Assembly (NCBI GenBank): GCA_022865865.1
Contig: JALHTN010000292.1
Span: 1 to 13,776 of the forward strand
Direction of reading: 5' to 3'
Source of the DNA: Anaerolineales bacterium
GTDB taxonomy: Bacteria; Chloroflexota; Anaerolineae; Anaerolineales; UBA4823
DNA: 13,776 nucleotides
In this document: piece after piece, positions 1,858-13,184 of the stretch
How the letters are laid out: every line of letters begins with the position of its first letter
Position numbering within the stretch: position 1 is the first letter of the stretch
Notes under the pieces: generated by a model
What the model saw: the letters and a program-made list of their open reading frames with translations, nothing else
Databases searched by the model: none
What the model was told of the DNA's origin: nothing
Position numbers and translations under genes: made by a program

Positions 1858-3675
1858 CTATACAAATCGTTTGCGTAAGGCTGAGCTGGTGTAATCCATG
1901 GTTGCCACCACGATTGCGATGGCGATCATCTGTGTGCTGGCAGCCCGGTAATCGAGCAGGCGGATGTTCTGCTGCAGCAAGAAACCGATGCCACCACCAC
2001 CAGCGAATCCGATGATAGTCGACATGCGTACATTGATGTCCCAACGATACATGGTGAAAGATATGTAGGGTGTGACGATTTGCGGCACGACCGCATAAGC
2101 GATCATCTGGATGCGGTTGGCACCGGTAGCCGTAACGGCTTCCAGAGGACCAGGCAGGATACTTTCAACTTGCTCGGAGTAAAGCTTGGACAGTGCTGCA
2201 GTGGTGTGTAAACCCAGCGCCAACGCACCTGCAAAGGGTCCGATCCCAACCCAAACGACGAAGATGATCACATAAATCAAGGGTTCAATGGAGCGGGTGG
2301 CGTTGAGCAGTGTGCGAGTTATGGTGTAGATCACTGAGCCAATCGGCAGCGCTCTTTTGGGAGTCACCCAAAGCGCTAACGCAATCCCCAGTATCGCACC
2401 CACTGCTGCTGGAATGAAAAAGGTTCTGGTCAGATCACCGAGCTGGTAGAGCCAATCGATGAAGGCACCAACCAGAACGAAAACAGCAGCCCCAGCAAGT
2501 GCGGAAATAATGACATTGGTTAATTTCACTGCGTTTGGTGACCAGCGGTCAGAGATGAAATGACCTATGCGACCTCCAAAGCTGCCCAGAACCCCTCCGG
2601 CTGCCAGGGCTGCCAGGGCGGGTGTGAGCATGCGCAGTATATCTGATAATTGGTAGATGAAATTGCCCATGAAACCAAATGTACCCAGATTATCTGCCAA
2701 GTAGGTGCCGAAAGCGAATCCAAGGTAAGCGATGAAGTTCATCGCGAAAAGCGCCAATACAGCCGCGACAGCCAGGGCCAGCATGCGGGTGATCCTCAGC
2801 GCCAGTTTTGGTTGCTCAAGTTCCTCGGGGGGGACGGCCCATTTGATGATCAACCAGATCACAAGAGCGCTGATCAGGATGCCTGCCAATACAATTAAAT
2901 TATTTTCTGAAAGGTTTTCGCTGGTTTGGCCGATCCAGCGGGCAAGCTGGAGGCCGATCCCTATCCCTACCGTCCATCCTAATAGCATCAATGCAATGCT
3001 GGTCAGGGGGCTCTTTACATCCTCCATCAGGTTGCGGGCAGCCAGGAAGCTGATGAAAATGGCCAGCAGGGTGCCGAAGGTGGTCGCCAGCAGGGCCAGA
3101 AAGACGGTTTCTATAATTTTATCGATGGTGGATAATGCCAATGGAGAGAGGCGAGGTGATCCCACATTCATGCGCGAGGTGGCACGGATAGCTTGAGCCT
3201 CCTCGACCGGTTGGCGATTGGGTAATTCCGTTTTAACTGTGAACTTGCCAGCTTCATCCACTTCAAAATTACCGATCTGCAGTTTGGCGCCGCTGGGGGG
3301 GATGAAATTTACCGGTCCCCTGGTCCCTGGTGTGAAGTTGAAGCCATTGATGGTGACGAAATCTTTCGGACCCGCGCAGGGAGGGTCGACGACGAGATAG
3401 GGACCTGATTGATCAACTGTAATCTCTGGTTCACCTGCCTCTTGACAGGGCAGGTAGTACGGTACTTCGACATCCACCTCGTCCTGATCATATTCAATGA
3501 TGTCCGGGTGAGCCAGGGCTCGGATGATGCGCGTGAGCTGGGTAAGGCGCTCCTCGGAACGGGTGGCTTCGAAATCCACATCCGTGACGCTGAATGCTAA
3601 AGCATAGATCAGGATCGCCGCAATGATGGCCACAAAGATCGCGATGGATCGCAGTAAAGATCGCTTTTTTTTCAC
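1858..3675 (-). CDS. phnE: Oversized PhnE-like ABC permease with IPT-like and membrane insertions
   Basis: This membrane subunit of a phosphonate-type ABC importer has about 605 residues, roughly twice the usual PhnE. Order: membrane helix 9-29; an extracellular part up to about 180 containing an IPT/TIG-like stretch (about 100-152, with VTINGFNFTPG and DEAGKFTV) and cysteines 77 and 100; the first PhnE core segment 181-215 (ETVFLALLATTFGTLLA, FLAARN); an extra region 220-450 with about six hydrophobic helices; then the conserved C-terminal core 453-605. That core includes RSIEPLIY, GIGPFAGALALGLHTT, the EAA-type coupling loop EAVTATGANRIQMIAYAVVP (512-531) and RMSTIIGFAGGGGIG. I chose GTG at 3673-3675 because GAGGTG lies seven bases upstream; a TTG at 3688-3690 overlapping the phnC stop is possible but lacks a site. 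It follows phnC by 11 bp, so one operon. The family is secure; the substrate is not. Confidence 0.85.
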   Translation of the reverse strand: MKKKRSLLRSIAIFVAIIAAILIYALAFSVTDVDFEATRSEERLTQLTRIIRALAHPDIIEYDQDEVDVEVPYYLPCQEAGEPEITVDQSGPYLVVDPPCAGPKDFVTINGFNFTPGTRGPVNFIPPSGAKLQIGNFEVDEAGKFTVKTELPNRQPVEEAQAIRATSRMNVGSPRLSPLALSTIDKIIETVFLALLATTFGTLLAIFISFLAARNLMEDVKSPLTSIALMLLGWTVGIGIGLQLARWIGQTSENLSENNLIVLAGILISALVIWLIIKWAVPPEELEQPKLALRITRMLALAVAAVLALFAMNFIAYLGFAFGTYLADNLGTFGFMGNFIYQLSDILRMLTPALAALAAGGVLGSFGGRIGHFISDRWSPNAVKLTNVIISALAGAAVFVLVGAFIDWLYQLGDLTRTFFIPAAVGAILGIALALWVTPKRALPIGSVIYTITRTLLNATRSIEPLIYVIIFVVWVGIGPFAGALALGLHTTAALSKLYSEQVESILPGPLEAVTATGANRIQMIAYAVVPQIVTPYISFTMYRWDINVRMSTIIGFAGGGGIGFLLQQNIRLLDYRAASTQMIAIAIVVATMDYTSSALRKRFV

Positions 3676-3686
3676 GATGTCACACC

Positions 3687-4439
3687 TCAACCGATTCGTT
3701 CGGCTTCTTTGCCGTAGATCTCTTTGAATTTCTCGTCGTCGATCCCGCTTGGTGGCCCATCATACATCAGCAAGCCTTCGTTGAGGGCAATAGCGCGGTC
3801 AGCGTAGCGGTGCACCAGGTCCAGGAAGTGCAAACTGCATAAGATCATGACCCCATCTTCCTTGTTGATCTGTTCCAGATACTGCATGATGGTATGGGCC
3901 AGTACGGGGTCAAGGCTGGCGACCGGCTCGTCGGCCAGGATCATCTCGGGTTCCTGCACCATGGCGCGGGCGATGCCCACCCGCTGCTGCTGTCCGCCGC
4001 TCAACTCATCGGCGCGTTTATAAGCCTGGTCGGTGATACCCACCCGCTCCAGCTGATGCATGGCCAGATCGATGTCCTTTTGGGGAAATCTATTGAGCAC
4101 GCTCATGAAGGGATTGACATAGCCCAGCCGGCCAGCCAGCACATTGGTGATCACTTTGGAACGGCTGACCAGGTTGAAGTGTTGGAAGACCATGCCGATT
4201 TTCCGGCGGATGCGCAGCATTTCATCCTGGCTGGCCTGGGTGATATCCATGCCATTCCAGATGATCTCACCGGCGGTCGGTTCGATCAGGCGGTTGATGC
4301 AGCGCAGCAGGGTGGACTTCCCAGAACCGCTCAAACCGATCACGGCCATGAATTCTCCGGGTTCAACTTTAAAGGTGACATTGTCCAGGGCCAGGACATC
4401 GCCCGGGTAAATTTTCTTAAGATTATTGATTTCAAGCAT
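3687..4439 (-). CDS. phnC: Phosphonate-type ABC importer ATPase PhnC
   Basis: This is a 250-residue ATP-binding subunit with every ABC motif intact: Walker A GLSGSGKST (35-43), Q-loop Q86, signature LSGGQQQR (146-153), Walker B MILADEP (166-172), D-loop SLDP (175-178) and switch H204. The segment NVLAGRLGYVNPFMSVLNRF after the Q-loop and the RADELSGGQQQR context mark the PhnC branch and not the GlnQ/HisP branch. It would energise PhnE, encoded 11 bp downstream. It is the only ATPase in the window, so it may also have to serve the amino-acid-type permease, unless that permease borrows an ATPase from elsewhere. The ATG at 4437-4439 has no Shine-Dalgarno sequence; TATAAT ends nine bases before it. 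Separated from the binding-protein gene by 244 bp and a strong hairpin. Confidence 0.92.
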   Translation of the reverse strand: MLEINNLKKIYPGDVLALDNVTFKVEPGEFMAVIGLSGSGKSTLLRCINRLIEPTAGEIIWNGMDITQASQDEMLRIRRKIGMVFQHFNLVSRSKVITNVLAGRLGYVNPFMSVLNRFPQKDIDLAMHQLERVGITDQAYKRADELSGGQQQRVGIARAMVQEPEMILADEPVASLDPVLAHTIMQYLEQINKEDGVMILCSLHFLDLVHRYADRAIALNEGLLMYDGPPSGIDDEKFKEIYGKEAERIG

Positions 4440-4454: not shown

Positions 4455-4629
4455 TTAAGATAAATGATTTTGTTATCGGATAATAAAATAATTACCAGAT
4501 ATAGTTTTGTGCAGACAACACTTTGATTGTAGAACTGATGTTTGACTGGTCTGAGAATGACTCAATTACTTTGATGTAAATCAACTCAGCTGAACAGTTA
4601 CCGGCATTTCTAAATTGTTATTTTCGTTC

Positions 4630-4666
4630 ATATAAGCCCCGGGTTGTTGAATCCCGGGGCTTATAT
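4630..4666 (-). terminator. Strong hairpin downstream of the binding-protein gene
   Basis: The arms at 4630-4643 and 4653-4666 form a perfect 14-bp stem (ATATAAGCCCCGGG and its complement) around a 9-base loop. An outer pair of 8-bp complementary arms, TTTTCGTT at 4621-4628 and AACGAAAA at 4673-4680, could lengthen it across unequal internal loops. It begins 18 bp after the stop of the solute-binding protein gene. No run of U follows the stem on either strand, so it may be a terminator of imperfect form or an mRNA-stabilising 3' structure that favours more binding protein than PhnCE. Confidence 0.65.
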
Positions 4667-4683
4667 TGTAAAAACGAAAAGAT

Positions 4684-6549
4684 TTACTCGCCGATATTCT
4701 CCAGCGTAATGCCTTGCTCTTCCATCATAATGCGAATGCCGTCGAAGTTCTCATCGAAGATGTAATCTGCTCCGGTCCATTCATAGAAATCTGGGGAGCA
4801 GATCAATTCCTCATCCACCTGGCAAGCATCCGATGCAAGGTAGTCGAATATGGCCTGAACGATGGGTTCCTTGAGCTCGTCAGGGAAGTCTGGCGACCAG
4901 GACATGGTGTCGTTGGGAATCTCTTTCGTGAGGGCCAGGATGCGCACTTTCTCGATCACGTCCGGTGCTTCCGCGCGGATCAGTTGGCGGGCGTCCTGAA
5001 CCCGGTATGGGCCGCACCATAATTGGTCTTCATCATTTAAGGCACACTCTGAAATATACTCATCGGGGATATCGGGGGGATCACCCATCTTCCACTCGCC
5101 ACCCTCGATGACTGGAACGCTGTAGAAGTTGGTACCGAAATCAACTTCACCATTGTATACCGCCAGTGCCGTTTGTGCATGACCGCCGGTCTCAACCTGA
5201 TCACCAACGGTGATGCCCAGGTCATTCAGCTCGGCTGCTGGGTAGAGGTAACCGGAGGTGGAGGTGAATTCGCCCAATCCCCAGGTCTTTCCCTCCAGGT
5301 CTTCCAGGGTCTGGATATCGCTGTCGCGGGGGACGATATACTGGGTCCAGTAAACCGTCCAGCCACGGCGTGCCGATGCCAGGGCGGGCTCTACGCCGCA
5401 TAGCTGGTTGGCGAGGGCATAACCCATGGCGGGGATGAAGGCGATTGTGTCGGTCGGGGAGGCACACATCTCCTCGATCGTGGCGGTATAGGAAGTGGGC
5501 ACGCTGACCTCATAAACCAGGCCGGTGGCCTCGCTGAGGAATTCCTCAATCGCATCGCCGCTCTCGACCATGTAGTCAACATTGACGGAGGGCACGAACA
5601 GCACCTTGATCGGGCTGTCAGCTGTACCGAGTTCGACTGCCTCTTCTTCATAGGCGCCGGAACCGAGGTCACCAAACAGGGCAACGATGTCGTCCTCTGA
5701 CATTTTGAACCACTTGGCGTTGATCTCCTGCAGGAATCCATCTGCACTCATCTCGGCAAGGACCGCGTTGAAGGGTTCAACCAGATCGCTGCCCTGGGGG
5801 AAGATAAAGCCCAGTTCGTCGAACGAAATCGAAGGACCAACCAATTTCAGTTCATTCGCATAGACACCAACATATCCCAGTCCAGCGATTTCATCGATGA
5901 TGACACCATCTACATCACCGGAGCGGAGGGCCTGGATGGCCAGGGGGAAGGTATCGGTAGCCAGGATTTGATCTTCTGGCAGGTAGTTTAGAGCGGCGTT
6001 ATAGTTAGTGGTTCCTACTTGCTCAGCTAACATCGCACCGTCTATGGCAGCCAAATCGTCAGCAGATTCGAAGCGATCATCATCAGCACGTACTAACAGG
6101 CGTTGATCGATGCTCACGTAACCATCGGAATAATCGACCTGCTTGGCACGTTCTTCAGTGATGGTGATGCCGTCAGCAGCCATGTCAAACTGCCCATCGG
6201 CCACGGAGGCGATCATCGTATCCCAACCGAATTCGACATAAACAGGTACACAATTCAGACGGGCGCAGGCTTCATTGAGGAAGTCATAATCCCAGCCAGC
6301 GGACTCTCCGGTAGCAAGAGCTTCGAAGTTGAAAGGTATATAGGCGTTCTCGACCGCGATGGTGACCTCGCGCCCATCCAGATCGGGCAGCATCATCTCT
6401 TCTTCTGCGGGTTCTGCTTCGGGTTCTGGTGCCTTGGTGGGCTCCACCTCGGCTTGTGGCGCTTCGGTTGGGGTGGCGGCCGGTGCACAGGCTGCCAGGA
6501 CCATACTGGCCAGAATTAGCATACTAATTAATAGAAAAAGCTTTTTCAT
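4684..6549 (-). CDS. Two-headed lipoprotein: amino-acid-type (SBP_bac_3) plus PhnD-type binding domains
   Basis: This 621-residue extracellular lipoprotein captures substrate for the ABC importer encoded around it. A signal peptide ends in lipobox LAAC (18-21), followed by a Pro/Glu/Ala-rich tether to about residue 51. Domain 1 (about 62-281) is a polar amino acid binding fold: GWDYDFLNEA, DGITITEERAKQVDYSDGY with R134, AEQVGTTNY, and VDGVIIDEIAG with D219. R134 and D219 align by motif with the residues that hold the carboxylate and amino groups in HisJ/GlnH-type proteins. A short linker (282-312) leads to domain 2 (313 to the end), a PhnD-type domain with the anion-binding STSGYLYP motif (430-437), as in phosphonate binding proteins. 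There is no stop or second signal peptide between them. The ATG at 6547-6549 is preceded by GGAGGAG; a 42-codon upstream extension is rejected because it hides the signal peptide. Six cysteines in domain 2 may form disulfides. Confidence 0.88.
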   Translation of the reverse strand: MKKLFLLISMLILASMVLAACAPAATPTEAPQAEVEPTKAPEPEAEPAEEEMMLPDLDGREVTIAVENAYIPFNFEALATGESAGWDYDFLNEACARLNCVPVYVEFGWDTMIASVADGQFDMAADGITITEERAKQVDYSDGYVSIDQRLLVRADDDRFESADDLAAIDGAMLAEQVGTTNYNAALNYLPEDQILATDTFPLAIQALRSGDVDGVIIDEIAGLGYVGVYANELKLVGPSISFDELGFIFPQGSDLVEPFNAVLAEMSADGFLQEINAKWFKMSEDDIVALFGDLGSGAYEEEAVELGTADSPIKVLFVPSVNVDYMVESGDAIEEFLSEATGLVYEVSVPTSYTATIEEMCASPTDTIAFIPAMGYALANQLCGVEPALASARRGWTVYWTQYIVPRDSDIQTLEDLEGKTWGLGEFTSTSGYLYPAAELNDLGITVGDQVETGGHAQTALAVYNGEVDFGTNFYSVPVIEGGEWKMGDPPDIPDEYISECALNDEDQLWCGPYRVQDARQLIRAEAPDVIEKVRILALTKEIPNDTMSWSPDFPDELKEPIVQAIFDYLASDACQVDEELICSPDFYEWTGADYIFDENFDGIRIMMEEQGITLENIGE

Positions 6550-6661
6550 TTTAGTTTTCTCCTCCAGAGAATTGGTTTTATATTTATCGATTTTGATTTT
6601 CGGTATCAGTTTTTCCCGGTCCACCTCCTTTGGATTGAAAATGAAATCCACAATATAAATC
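6550..6661 (-). promoter_or_regulatory. Leader between permease and binding-protein genes, with two ribosome-binding sites
   Basis: The true site, GGAGGAG, lies eight bases before the lipoprotein ATG. A second, near-perfect site AAAGGAGGTGG lies at about 6621-6631 but has no ATG, GTG or TTG at a normal distance downstream. The second could be a decayed start, a ribosome standby site or chance. No hairpin is obvious. The permease and lipoprotein genes are only 112 bp apart on the same strand, so they are probably co-transcribed. Confidence 0.4.
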
Positions 6662-7564
6662 TCATGTCTCTTCACCTACATCCATACGCTGTTCCATATA
6701 TTTGACCCCCATGGAAAGAATCAGCGTCATGCTGAGATATAGGAAAGCCACCACGTTATAAGTCTGCGGGTAAAGGAAGGAAGCTGCGGAGTATTTCTTG
6801 CCCAGCTGGGTGATCTCGCCTACCCCCAACACCGAAACCAGGGAAGATTCCTTCAACATCGAGATAAAGTCGTTCCCTAAAGGGGGTAAGATGCGGCGGA
6901 CTGCTTGCGGCATCACCACATAGCGCATGGTTTGAAACCAGCTCAATCCCAAAGCCTTGGAGGCTTCCAGCTGGCCTTTCTCGATCGATTGGATGCCGGC
7001 GCGGAAGACCTCTGATGAAAAGGCGCCGTAGTTGATTGCTAAAGCGATGATGCCGCGGACCACAAAACTGACTCCGCGCGAGGTCAGATTGCTCAAAGTA
7101 TTATCAGCAGCCAACCAGCCCATGCTGACCATCCAGTCGCCTAAAGCGTTGAGCAAATTGATACTGGCTGGGACAATCACCAGGGCGGTGTAGAAAATGA
7201 GCACGATCACCGGTATGCCGCGGATGATCTGGACATATAAAGTGGCTAGATTTCTGGCGACCACACTTGAGAAATTGGTACCTTGAGACATCTGGGCAAA
7301 AGCGGTGATCAGGCCGATGATCATTGAAAAGGCGAATGAAACCAGGGTGACGGTGACAGTGAGTCGAATACCGGCAACCAAGTAGACGATTATATCCTGA
7401 TAGGTGGCGTTGGTGGTGAAACTAAAAACCAGCAAAACCCCCATCAGGGCTAAGGCTAATCCCCACCAGGGGAAATTCGCCAGGCGATCGGTGATGCGGG
7501 TCTGCACCAGGGGGGTGGCTTCGCTGGTGTTTTTTGGAGTGGTCGAGGAGCTTGAGTTTGTCAA
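6662..7564 (-). CDS. Polar amino acid-type ABC permease (HisM/GlnP family)
   Basis: This is a 300-residue membrane subunit of the His/Glu/Gln/Arg/opine permease family. After a Ser/Thr-rich cytoplasmic tail (about 1-30) come helices at about 33-50, 57-92 (two) and more after 105. RGIPVIVLIFY (115-125) and the coupling loop EASKALGLSWFQTMRYVVMP (200-219), followed by PLGNDFISMLKESSLVSVLGVGEIT, are diagnostic of the family. The gene leads the transporter block and is followed 112 bp later by the two-headed lipoprotein, whose first domain is the matching binding-protein type. Its usual GlnQ-type ATPase is missing from the window. The start is a TTG at 7562-7564 with AGAGG eight bases upstream. 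Such permeases work as homo- or heterodimers; only one is encoded here, so a homodimer is simplest. Confidence 0.9.
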   Translation of the reverse strand: MTNSSSSTTPKNTSEATPLVQTRITDRLANFPWWGLALALMGVLLVFSFTTNATYQDIIVYLVAGIRLTVTVTLVSFAFSMIIGLITAFAQMSQGTNFSSVVARNLATLYVQIIRGIPVIVLIFYTALVIVPASINLLNALGDWMVSMGWLAADNTLSNLTSRGVSFVVRGIIALAINYGAFSSEVFRAGIQSIEKGQLEASKALGLSWFQTMRYVVMPQAVRRILPPLGNDFISMLKESSLVSVLGVGEITQLGKKYSAASFLYPQTYNVVAFLYLSMTLILSMGVKYMEQRMDVGEET

Positions 7565-11753: not shown

Positions 11754-13184
11754 TTGTGTTTGAGAAAGCTGCTCCACGTGGAAAATCCTGAGTTCGATAT
11801 TTACCCGATCATTGCCCAAGGCATGACCTCAAACCTGCATTGGTGTTCCGAGGATGTGCCCCCGGGGGAATTAGCTGCCATTTTGGTCGCAATGGCGAAT
11901 ACCGAGGGCGGCACCCTTTACCTGGGGATCAATTCTAATTATGGACAGATAGAAGGGGTGCGGGATGTTCCATCAGCAGTCGACCGCCTCTTTCGATCTT
12001 GTTTATTATCTGAGCCAACGCTAGTTTTACCAGTTCCCAGAACACAGCGTGTGGGGCAGGTTGCGGTGTTGGAGATCATTGTGCCGCAAGGTTTGCCCCA
12101 TGTATTCAATATAGAAGGGCGCTATTACTGGCGAGAAGGTCGGCATACGAATCCCATACCAGCTCGCCAATTGCGCCAATTATTGGTTGAAAGAGGGTCG
12201 CTTCAATTTGAATCTCAGGTACCCGCGGATGCCAGCTATGAAGATTTAGATCCCCAGCAGCTTGAAGCCTACGCTGAATCATATTTCTCAGCATTGAACT
12301 TGCCTGAAGATCATGCCCGACCTGGAATTGAAGAAATACTACTGCAGCGAGGCTGCATAAAGAATGTGGACGGTAAACTGCAGCCAACCTATGCAGCCCT
12401 GCTGATATTCGGTCGCTCTCCCCAACGCTGGCTGCCAACTGCCCAAATACTGGCAACCCGGTTCTCCGGAAATTATTTCGGTGATCGCTTTATTAAACAG
12501 GAGATCAACGGGTCCTTGCCTGTGCAGCTAAAACTGGCCGAAAATTTCTTGAGCACGAATTTACAGAATGTCGTGCGCATGGTTGGGTTAACTCACCAGG
12601 AGACACTTGAGTACCCTTATGATGCGGTCCGCGAGCTGATCATCAACAGCGTTGCACACCGGGATTACAATGCTCAGGGGGATTGCATTCACATGAATAT
12701 TTTTTCGAACCGTCTGGAGATCACATCACCTGGGGGTTTACCAGGTCCCATCACCATTAAGAATCTCCTGGAGGCACGCTTCTCTCGCAATCCACTTATT
12801 GTGCAGTTCTTAGCGGATTTAGGATTTGTCGAACGGTTGGGATATGGATTAAAGCGGGTGGTCAGCTCAATGCGCGAAAATTCTTTGCCTCCGCCACATT
12901 TCGAGGAAGCTTCCGGTGCTTTTCGAGTATTGCTCCATAATGAACCCGATAATGATTTTTCCTCCACAGATCTATCCCAATACCAGCTTGAAGGTATTAA
13001 TCCCAGACAGGAATTCGCACTCAATTACCTGGCATCTCGGCGGCGGATCACCAATCGTGAATATCAAGACCTGTGTCCAGATGTTCACCAGGAGACCCTG
13101 CGCCGGGATTTATCGGATTTAGTTTCTCGGGGGGTGCTGCTGAAGATTGGAGATAAGAAATCCACCTACTACATCCTGAAGTAG
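11754..13184 (+). CDS. AlbA_2 / RecG-C-like putative transcriptional regulator
   Basis: This cytoplasmic protein of up to 476 residues has the layout of the AlbA_2 (DUF-type 'ATP-binding/RecG C-terminal') regulators. An N-terminal AlbA_2-like domain (about 38-150) carries ELAAILVAMANTEGGTLYLGI and YYWREGRHTNPI. A GHKL-like C-terminal RecG-type domain (about 285-395) carries AVRELIINSVAHRDY (291-305), LEITSPGGLP and RFSRNPLIVQFLADLGFVERLGYGL. A winged helix ends the protein (about 415-476, TNREYQDL and ETLRRDLSDLVSRGVL). The usual acidic E-x-x-x-E-F-K motif before AlbA_2 is not recognisable. The start is uncertain: TTG at 11754, TTG at 11760 or GTG at 11778, none with a good ribosome site. It lies 25 bp after lon on the same strand, so it is probably in the folC-lon operon. 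Target genes are unknown. Confidence 0.8.
   Translation: MCLRKLLHVENPEFDIYPIIAQGMTSNLHWCSEDVPPGELAAILVAMANTEGGTLYLGINSNYGQIEGVRDVPSAVDRLFRSCLLSEPTLVLPVPRTQRVGQVAVLEIIVPQGLPHVFNIEGRYYWREGRHTNPIPARQLRQLLVERGSLQFESQVPADASYEDLDPQQLEAYAESYFSALNLPEDHARPGIEEILLQRGCIKNVDGKLQPTYAALLIFGRSPQRWLPTAQILATRFSGNYFGDRFIKQEINGSLPVQLKLAENFLSTNLQNVVRMVGLTHQETLEYPYDAVRELIINSVAHRDYNAQGDCIHMNIFSNRLEITSPGGLPGPITIKNLLEARFSRNPLIVQFLADLGFVERLGYGLKRVVSSMRENSLPPPHFEEASGAFRVLLHNEPDNDFSSTDLSQYQLEGINPRQEFALNYLASRRRITNREYQDLCPDVHQETLRRDLSDLVSRGVLLKIGDKKSTYYILK

Follow-up and report, generated by a model that had tools for sequence, protein, structure and literature searches.

The 13,776-nucleotide stretch of Anaerolineales DNA analysed here (the window) encodes, on its reverse strand, a lipoprotein of 621 aa (positions 4684 to 6549) in which substrate-binding domains of two ABC importer families, SBP_bac_3 (D1) and a PhnD-type domain (D2), follow one another in a single chain. 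This protein probably has two substrate-binding heads on a single lipid anchor, each supplying an ABC importer of its own. D1 would capture an amino-acid-like solute and deliver it to the HisM/GlnP-type permease encoded just upstream, for which a GlnQ-type ATPase with its gene at another place in the genome would provide the energy. D2 would capture a phosphorus oxyanion compound and deliver it to a long PhnE permease working with PhnC. The usual description of an ABC importer gives each transporter one binding protein or several that belong to a single family. Here, binding domains of different importer families share one polypeptide, each with what we read as its own permease, and the ATPase for D1 would be encoded apart. 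The SBP_bac_3-D2 fusion belongs to a family whose N-terminal partners are interchangeable. The broader result is that this D2 occurs fused to binding domains of five Pfam families, and also to TIR and WD40 proteins.

Layout of the fused gene and its protein

The reading frame runs unbroken from an ATG at 6549 to 4684 (reverse strand), with a GGAGG upstream at 6565 to 6561. It starts with a signal peptide and lipobox (residues 1 to 21, positions 6487 to 6549; LAAC, ending in C21), followed by a tether, D1 (residues 54 to 283, positions 5701 to 6390), a linker (residues 284 to 312, positions 5614 to 5700) and D2 (residues 313 to 621, positions 4687 to 5613), which contains STS at 430 to 432, H457 and PNDT at 545 to 548, all on the reverse strand. 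The lipobox is the only one in the fusion, and its cysteine is invariant across 18 sequences (the window protein and 17 relatives); the fusion would be exported and lipidated. By-eye inspection revealed no second signal peptide ahead of D2, and export of D2 would thus depend on the lone N-terminal signal.

An earlier note on this DNA had read SBP_bac_3 and PhnD folds in one frame behind a single lipobox, and had proposed domain searches of both halves, a search for homologues with the same domain order and a structure prediction. Pfam confirmed both families far above their cut-offs, with PF00497 (SBP_bac_3) at residues 62 to 282 (111.7 bits; cut-off, 26.4) and PF12974 (Phosphonate-bd) at residues 318 to 571 (137.9 bits; cut-off, 27). 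The AlphaFold2 model (mean pLDDT 82.3) contains two well-formed flytraps joined by a short linker, and a tether of low confidence; since its pTM is 0.52, the mutual orientation of D1 and D2 is not fixed. A Foldseek search with the whole model returned first the GlnPQ SBD1-SBD2 tandem (6h30) and then PtxB (TM score of 0.80 by target) and glutamine-binding proteins.

Relatives and selection

The search for relatives scored 7,999 candidates and gave 2,996 matches, of which 120 were listed and used to read the architecture. SBP_bac_3 was followed by D2 in 114 of these 120, the order for which the earlier note had proposed to search, and the named sources of the listed relatives were all Anaerolineales, Chloroflexi or Chloroflexota assemblies. 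The other six (P0037, P0040, P0043, P0046, P0092 and P0119) are tandem SBP_bac_3 triplets without D2, made of D1-type copies, some of them almost identical to each other. Independent contigs also carry the fusion, e.g., L001 with 83% identity. Against L001, dN/dS (Nei-Gojobori) was 0.12 for D1 (dS 0.60) and 0.23 for D2 (dS 0.42), revealing purifying selection on both domains; dS was near saturation in the comparisons with L002 and L019.

An assembly or annotation artefact was also considered. Contigs of several loci stop within D2 or directly behind it (L005, L024, L036 and L039) or start just before it (L020); D2 repeats within a genome would give such contig ends, and repeats can misjoin. 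Against this, 114 of the 120 listed relatives are fused, on contigs reaching over 3 Mb, the kin proteins diverge steadily across both domains, and both halves are under selection. For the SBP_bac_3-D2 type, the wide range of independent contigs refutes an artefact, and we give it hardly any credence as a general explanation. One locus, L017, has an SBP_bac_1-D2 fusion followed by NupA and NupB genes, while its PhnC-PhnE genes lie on another contig that ends inside PhnC; it could be a misjoin, and it was given no weight in the argument. The existence of a two-family fusion is thus confirmed. A search of the open-licence PMC literature found no description of such fusions, and in the single text matched by the phrase "two SBP domains" these words denote the two lobes of one protein.

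Ligand residues of the two domains

E67, R134 and D219 of D1 align with 4zv1, and R134 and D219, opposite an Arg and an Asp of that structure, are invariant in the 18 sequences; we take an Arg and an Asp of this type to be the canonical SBP_bac_3 ligand residues. D1 reached no amino-acid equivalog cut-off among the NCBIfam models listed, so no specific amino acid can be assigned to it. In D2, S430-T431-S432-G433 and H457 are likewise invariant in the 18 sequences, and STS and H align with the STS-H oxyanion motif of PtxB, whose residues are given for PtxB and PhnD in excerpts of PMC5700983. The retention of ligand residues in both domains (R134 and D219; STSG, 430 to 433), which the earlier note had suggested, is therefore borne out.

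D2 scored 154.5 bits with TIGR01098 (cut-off, 112.05) and 95.7 bits with the PhnD equivalog TIGR03431, below its cut-off of 261.1. In low-scoring phmmer segments, D547 of D2 sits opposite the capping Tyr of Te_PtxB (Y208), which is linked with phosphite specificity in the same excerpts (PMC5700983), and HtxB likewise has an Asp there. Phosphite selectivity is not predicted for D2, since D547 aligns with the capping Tyr. Its residues would predict phosphate, a phosphonate or a phosphate ester as ligand, nothing narrower, and "phosphonate" is here a family name only. According to the parts of the papers available, PhnD relatives may serve phosphate (picocyanobacterial PhnD1; PMC10284923) or glycerol phosphates (GpxB, of the PhnT family; PMC12718374) instead of phosphonates. 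The ligands proposed for the two domains are thus predictions from sequence.

Gene order and the border between the transporters

The gene order on the reverse strand of the window is HisM/GlnP-type permease, fusion, PhnC and long PhnE. The HisM/GlnP-type amino-acid importer permease (300 aa, positions 6662 to 7564) matched PF00528 with 84.1 bits and TIGR01726 with 42.2 bits, which equals the cut-off. PhnC, the ATPase (250 aa, 3687 to 4439), scored 331.9 bits with TIGR02315 (cut-off, 266.1), and the PhnE permease (610 aa, 1858 to 3690) scored 217.2 bits with TIGR01097 (cut-off, 216.7). PhnC and PhnE adjoin the PhnD-type domain, as membership in a PhnCDE importer requires. The view in the earlier note that gene order fits the fusion held when the genes were identified with Pfam and NCBIfam.

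We compared five loci (L003, L004, L007, L011 and L012) that have downstream DUF218 and HD genes in common. Between L003 and L012, bins of one study (co234) to which the contigs bearing HisM-GlnQ in trans were assigned by binning, identity was 96% for D1, 91% for HisM in trans and 94% for GlnQ in trans, whereas it was 60% for D2, 80% for PhnC and 49% for PhnE (DUF218, 79%; HD, 85%). The six cross pairs between L003, L004 or L007 and L011 or L012 gave 83 to 96% for D1, 79 to 91% for HisM and 83 to 94% for GlnQ, against 59 to 63% for D2, 80 to 82% for PhnC and 48 to 51% for PhnE. Within L003, L004 and L007, the values were 86 to 88% (D1), 80 to 90% (HisM), 88 to 92% (GlnQ), 86 to 90% (D2), 90 to 92% (PhnC) and 75 to 83% (PhnE); L011 and L012 share 84% in D1, 75% in D2, 82% in PhnC and 63% in PhnE. 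The domain border is thus also the border between the transporters, since D1, HisM and GlnQ stay alike while D2, PhnC and PhnE diverge. From these identities, we infer that D2, PhnC and PhnE were probably replaced together while D1 was conserved, the breakpoint lying within the fused gene. A swap of the L003/L012 type is the strongest evidence that the two halves of the fusion work for two importers.

The probable permease and ATPase of D1

The order HisM, fusion, PhnC and PhnE is also found in L001, L002, L006, L008, L009 and L019. Among the fused loci holding SBP_bac_3 and with about 1 kb or more upstream, 7 of 12 (3 of these 7 being Bmp-SBP_bac_3-D2 triples) had a HisM gene within 9 kb, versus none of 46 stand-alone D2 loci, a set from which the cut fusions L020 and L039 were excluded and in which 40 loci have the same flank (7/12 versus 0/40, Fisher test; P = 6e−6, with related loci taken as independent). 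Six of the 79 loci (L065, L066, L067, L069, L073 and L077) stand outside the count because an overlapping ORF frame was chosen there. No HisM gene was found within 9.7 kb upstream in L036 and L039.

Genomes were searched with profiles for the TIGR01726 permease (12 genomes) and for SBP_bac_3 (10 of those 12). Exactly one TIGR01726 match was found in G001, G003, G410, G412 and G419, and also in G414, and exactly one SBP_bac_3 domain, always the fused D1, in the first five; these being draft genomes of unstated completeness, such counts are lower bounds. The sole permease adjoins the fusion in G001, G003, G410 and G412, and lies on another contig in G419, where the contig of the fusion ends inside the gene. 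In G001, the nearest kin of the window, this permease scored 38.2 bits, below the TIGR01726 cut-off of 42.2. Each of these five genomes has one strong GlnQ gene, with no such permease or binding protein adjoining it in the flank, which is short in G001 and G412. In G407, G408, G411, G414 and G415, either HisM is absent upstream of the fusion or the flank is too short to show it, and all five carry a two-gene HisM-GlnQ pair on another contig. The paired HisM is 41 to 44% identical to that of the window, and none of the five contigs with the pair had an SBP_bac_3 match (flanks are short in G411, with about 150 bases on one side). A conventional second set (binding protein, permeases and GlnQ on one contig) is present in G407, G408, G411 and G415, and G414 has the pair only. 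G406 and G417, other genomes with HisM adjacent to the fusion in which SBP_bac_3 was not counted, have further HisM-type permeases with GlnQ. Since the fused D1 is the sole SBP_bac_3 domain found in five genomes and the contigs with HisM-GlnQ pairs gave no SBP_bac_3 match, D1 can be assigned, largely by elimination, to the HisM-GlnQ importer. The GlnQ of the window itself is presumed from the kin genomes.

A self-contained two-permease importer, in which PhnC would be the ATPase shared by the HisM permease and PhnE, was set aside as the main reading once the lone GlnQ genes and the HisM-GlnQ pairs were found. It agrees with the window operon having no other ABC ATPase, with PhnC being the only PhnC-like ORF (at 1e−4) in L001, L002, L006, L008, L009 and L019, and with the four SBP_bac_8-D2 loci with MalF and MalG, where a motif search over about 9 kb found PhnC as the sole ATPase (4/4). 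However, a strong GlnQ was present in 7 of the 7 genomes searched, scoring far above PhnC on NF007027 (211 to 330 bits, the lowest of these cut by a contig feature, versus 164 to 180 bits for PhnC). Where only one HisM was found, in five genomes, this GlnQ has no partner gene. HisM is paired directly with GlnQ in five other genomes, and MalK-type ATPases are found elsewhere in all four SBP_bac_8-D2 genomes. We thus regard a shared PhnC as unlikely and keep D1 with HisM and GlnQ. SBP_bac_3 domains also occur away from D2 in frames of 616, 1,347 and 1,313 aa (G408:C57, G408:C89 and G411:C103, respectively).

D2 has many partners

The partners of D2 were surveyed in 219 proteins (6 of them without D2) and 113 loci, a redundant set drawn by similarity to the fusion. 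Partner labels are BLAST matches to reference domains, mostly checked with Pfam; for Peripla_BP_4, the reference was taken from P0157 on the strength of its precomputed Pfam label. Five Pfam binding-domain families were found N-terminal to D2: SBP_bac_3, Bmp, SBP_bac_8, SBP_bac_1 and Peripla_BP_4. D2 may also be preceded by two Bmp domains, by Bmp and SBP_bac_3, or by SBP_bac_1, SBP_bac_3 and Bmp (P0147, 1,351 aa), the latter having four binding-domain families in one chain including D2, which is the maximum found. The first domain of P0147 had no direct Pfam match at 1e−5 and is 84% identical to the part of L024 called SBP_bac_1 by Pfam. The domains of the Bmp-SBP_bac_3-D2 triple were identified by sequence only (its structure model has a pLDDT of 31.9, with 7 close sequences). 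Two TIR proteins (P0189 and P0197) likewise have D2 at their C terminus, as does a WD40 protein (L111:5754-10544), in which AAA and TPR regions were read by eye. P0205 has a C-terminal D2 on a protein that looks kinase-like by eye, and P0125 (1,077 aa) has two D2 copies at its N terminus and PKD domains in precomputed Pfam.

These partners bear on the earlier note, which had offered two substrates for one protein or a hybrid substrate, such as an aminophosphonate, held at its two ends by the two domains. For the latter speak the typical residues kept in both pockets and the joining of the halves in one chain. Yet the two permease sets are inherited separately, and D2 is elsewhere joined to nucleoside-, sugar- and ribose-type binding domains or stands alone. 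Venus-flytrap pockets close over their ligand, and two of them closing on one small molecule is unlikely. The aminophosphonate reading was set aside after the Bmp, SBP_bac_1, SBP_bac_8 and Peripla_BP_4 partners were found, and a hybrid substrate now seems very improbable; two substrates are favoured by the separable HisM-GlnQ and PhnC-PhnE sets.

The matching of partner and permease seen for D1 extends to Bmp, less completely. Nup genes lie near 5 of 7 Bmp fusions (versus 3 of 46 stand-alone D2 loci), and MalF and MalG near all 4 SBP_bac_8 fusions (versus 2 of 46). Against this rule, Nup genes were found near none of the 3 Bmp-SBP_bac_3-D2 triples, and no sugar-type permease was seen around the two SBP_bac_1 fusions, whose flanks are short on one side. 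In five of the eight genomes searched (G003, G410, G412, G419 and G423), no Bmp other than the fused one was found. A NupA-NupB-NupC set without Bmp is present elsewhere in G003, G412 and G423, in the last next to a further lipoprotein; the single region examined in G410 holds another transporter. In L009, the Bmp part closely resembles 6pi5 (atrazine periplasmic binding protein by name), and in L110 and L113 a nucleoside hydrolase gene adjoins the Nup genes.

Fusions are a minority among D2 genomes in an even draw of the class. D2 was found at E ≤ 1e−40 in 71 of 396 genomes, of which 5 have it in a frame of at least 700 aa, one of these being the WD40 protein of L111 (the count misses frames truncated at a contig end). 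In a tree of 118 representative D2 sequences (quick search, unrooted), the partner labels need 47 changes, and the starred branches force a minimum of 13 (SBP_bac_3), 11 (Bmp) and 8 (SBP_bac_8). The Acidobacteria fusion of L036 combines a D1 of only 36% identity with a D2 placed next to a stand-alone copy, which, on these sequences, points to a separate origin. There were 154 pairs of D2 at least 86% identical with different partners (a redundant count that includes truncated frames such as L020). L166 and L167, on one 5.35-Mb contig, have D2 copies 94.8% identical over 916 aligned bases in unlike surroundings, one beside PhnC-PhnE-NupA and the other beside a kinase-looking gene.

Such close sisters with different partners may result from fast swapping between genomes or from several D2 copies per genome. 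Several copies are suggested by the identical D2 of P0206 and P0212, which also agree in the length of their longest contig (42,821), by contigs ending at D2 or in PhnC, by two copies in G261 and by two matches in 9 of the 71 genomes, most second matches being weak or partial. Against them, 10 of 10 genomes had one match, and 24 of 26 had a single match, the other two having a weak second match only.

D2 could also be mainly an anchor or sensor module that no longer delivers substrate, the common extracellular part of binding and signalling proteins. Its C-terminal place in TIR and WD40 proteins, the different partners of near-identical D2 and the two copies on the 5.35-Mb contig, one of them next to the kinase-looking gene, are consistent with this, as is L164 (G436), a Bmp-D2 end followed by neither PhnC nor PhnE, in a genome where no PhnE was found. 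However, among the stand-alone D2 loci PhnC adjoins D2 in 41 of 46 and PhnE in 44 of 46, both diverging together with D2, and a functional pocket is indicated by its ligand motif and dN/dS. A purely anchoring or sensing role appears quite improbable, and D2 is better regarded as a delivering domain. As a tentative picture, to which we give somewhat less than an even chance, Chloroflexota would have a portable D2 module, copied and recombined within and between genomes, that is a common C-terminal carrier for the binding proteins of unrelated importers. One lipid-anchored "poly-receptor" would then serve two to four importers with partly scattered permeases, and D2 would also be an extracellular sensor of TIR and other cytoplasmic signalling proteins.

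Comparison with known systems

We take both binding domains of GlnPQ to belong to one family. Like the fusion, GlnPQ has two binding domains in tandem in one chain (SBD1-SBD2; 6h30; PMC8025302), there attached to the permease of just one amino-acid importer; the fusion differs in being a lipoprotein with separate permease genes, read as serving two importers, and in that D1 and D2 belong to different Pfam families, which sets it apart from a GlnPQ-type tandem. PtxB, HtxB and PhnD (PMC5700983, in part) share the fold and the STS-H motif of D2, which lacks the capping Tyr of PtxB (D547) and remains under the PhnD equivalog cut-off. In the portions of PMC10284923 and PMC12718374 available, picocyanobacterial PhnD1 and GpxB are described with no mention of a fusion, unlike the D2 protein. 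ArtJ and glutamine-binding proteins have the D1 fold and the aligned Arg and Asp in common with D1 and are not fused. The periplasmic tandem flytraps of BvgS (4q0c) ranked ninth in the Foldseek search with the whole model; they are presumably part of a sensor kinase, not of a transporter lipoprotein.

D1 and D2 would each dock on their own permease. Chloroflexota are mostly monoderm, and our working guess is that joining binding proteins fixes their ratio on one anchor at a surface without periplasm, instead of coupling the transport steps. The fusion makes it testable whether binding proteins act as shared hubs, whether tethering links the import of dissimilar nutrients and why recombination and domain borders coincide. 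It is also a warning for annotation: many fusions are named "phosphate/phosphite/phosphonate" binding from the C terminus alone, so that, in such genomes, an importer for amino acids or nucleosides may look as if it had no binding protein.

Other elements of the window

The PhnE of the window has 610 aa, versus 252 positions in the TIGR01097 model, and a length of about 600 aa is recurrent in most related loci. Between the fusion and PhnC lies a hairpin (positions 4621 to 4680, reverse strand; −32 kcal/mol, z = −6.1) with a perfect inner stem of 14 pairs (4630 to 4666) and no T tract after it, which is perhaps an mRNA stabiliser raising the binding protein over the permease. Positions 11754 to 13184 encode a protein with AlbA_2/Schlafen and HATPase_c_4 domains, perhaps a regulator, adjoining an ORF that looks Lon-like by eye.
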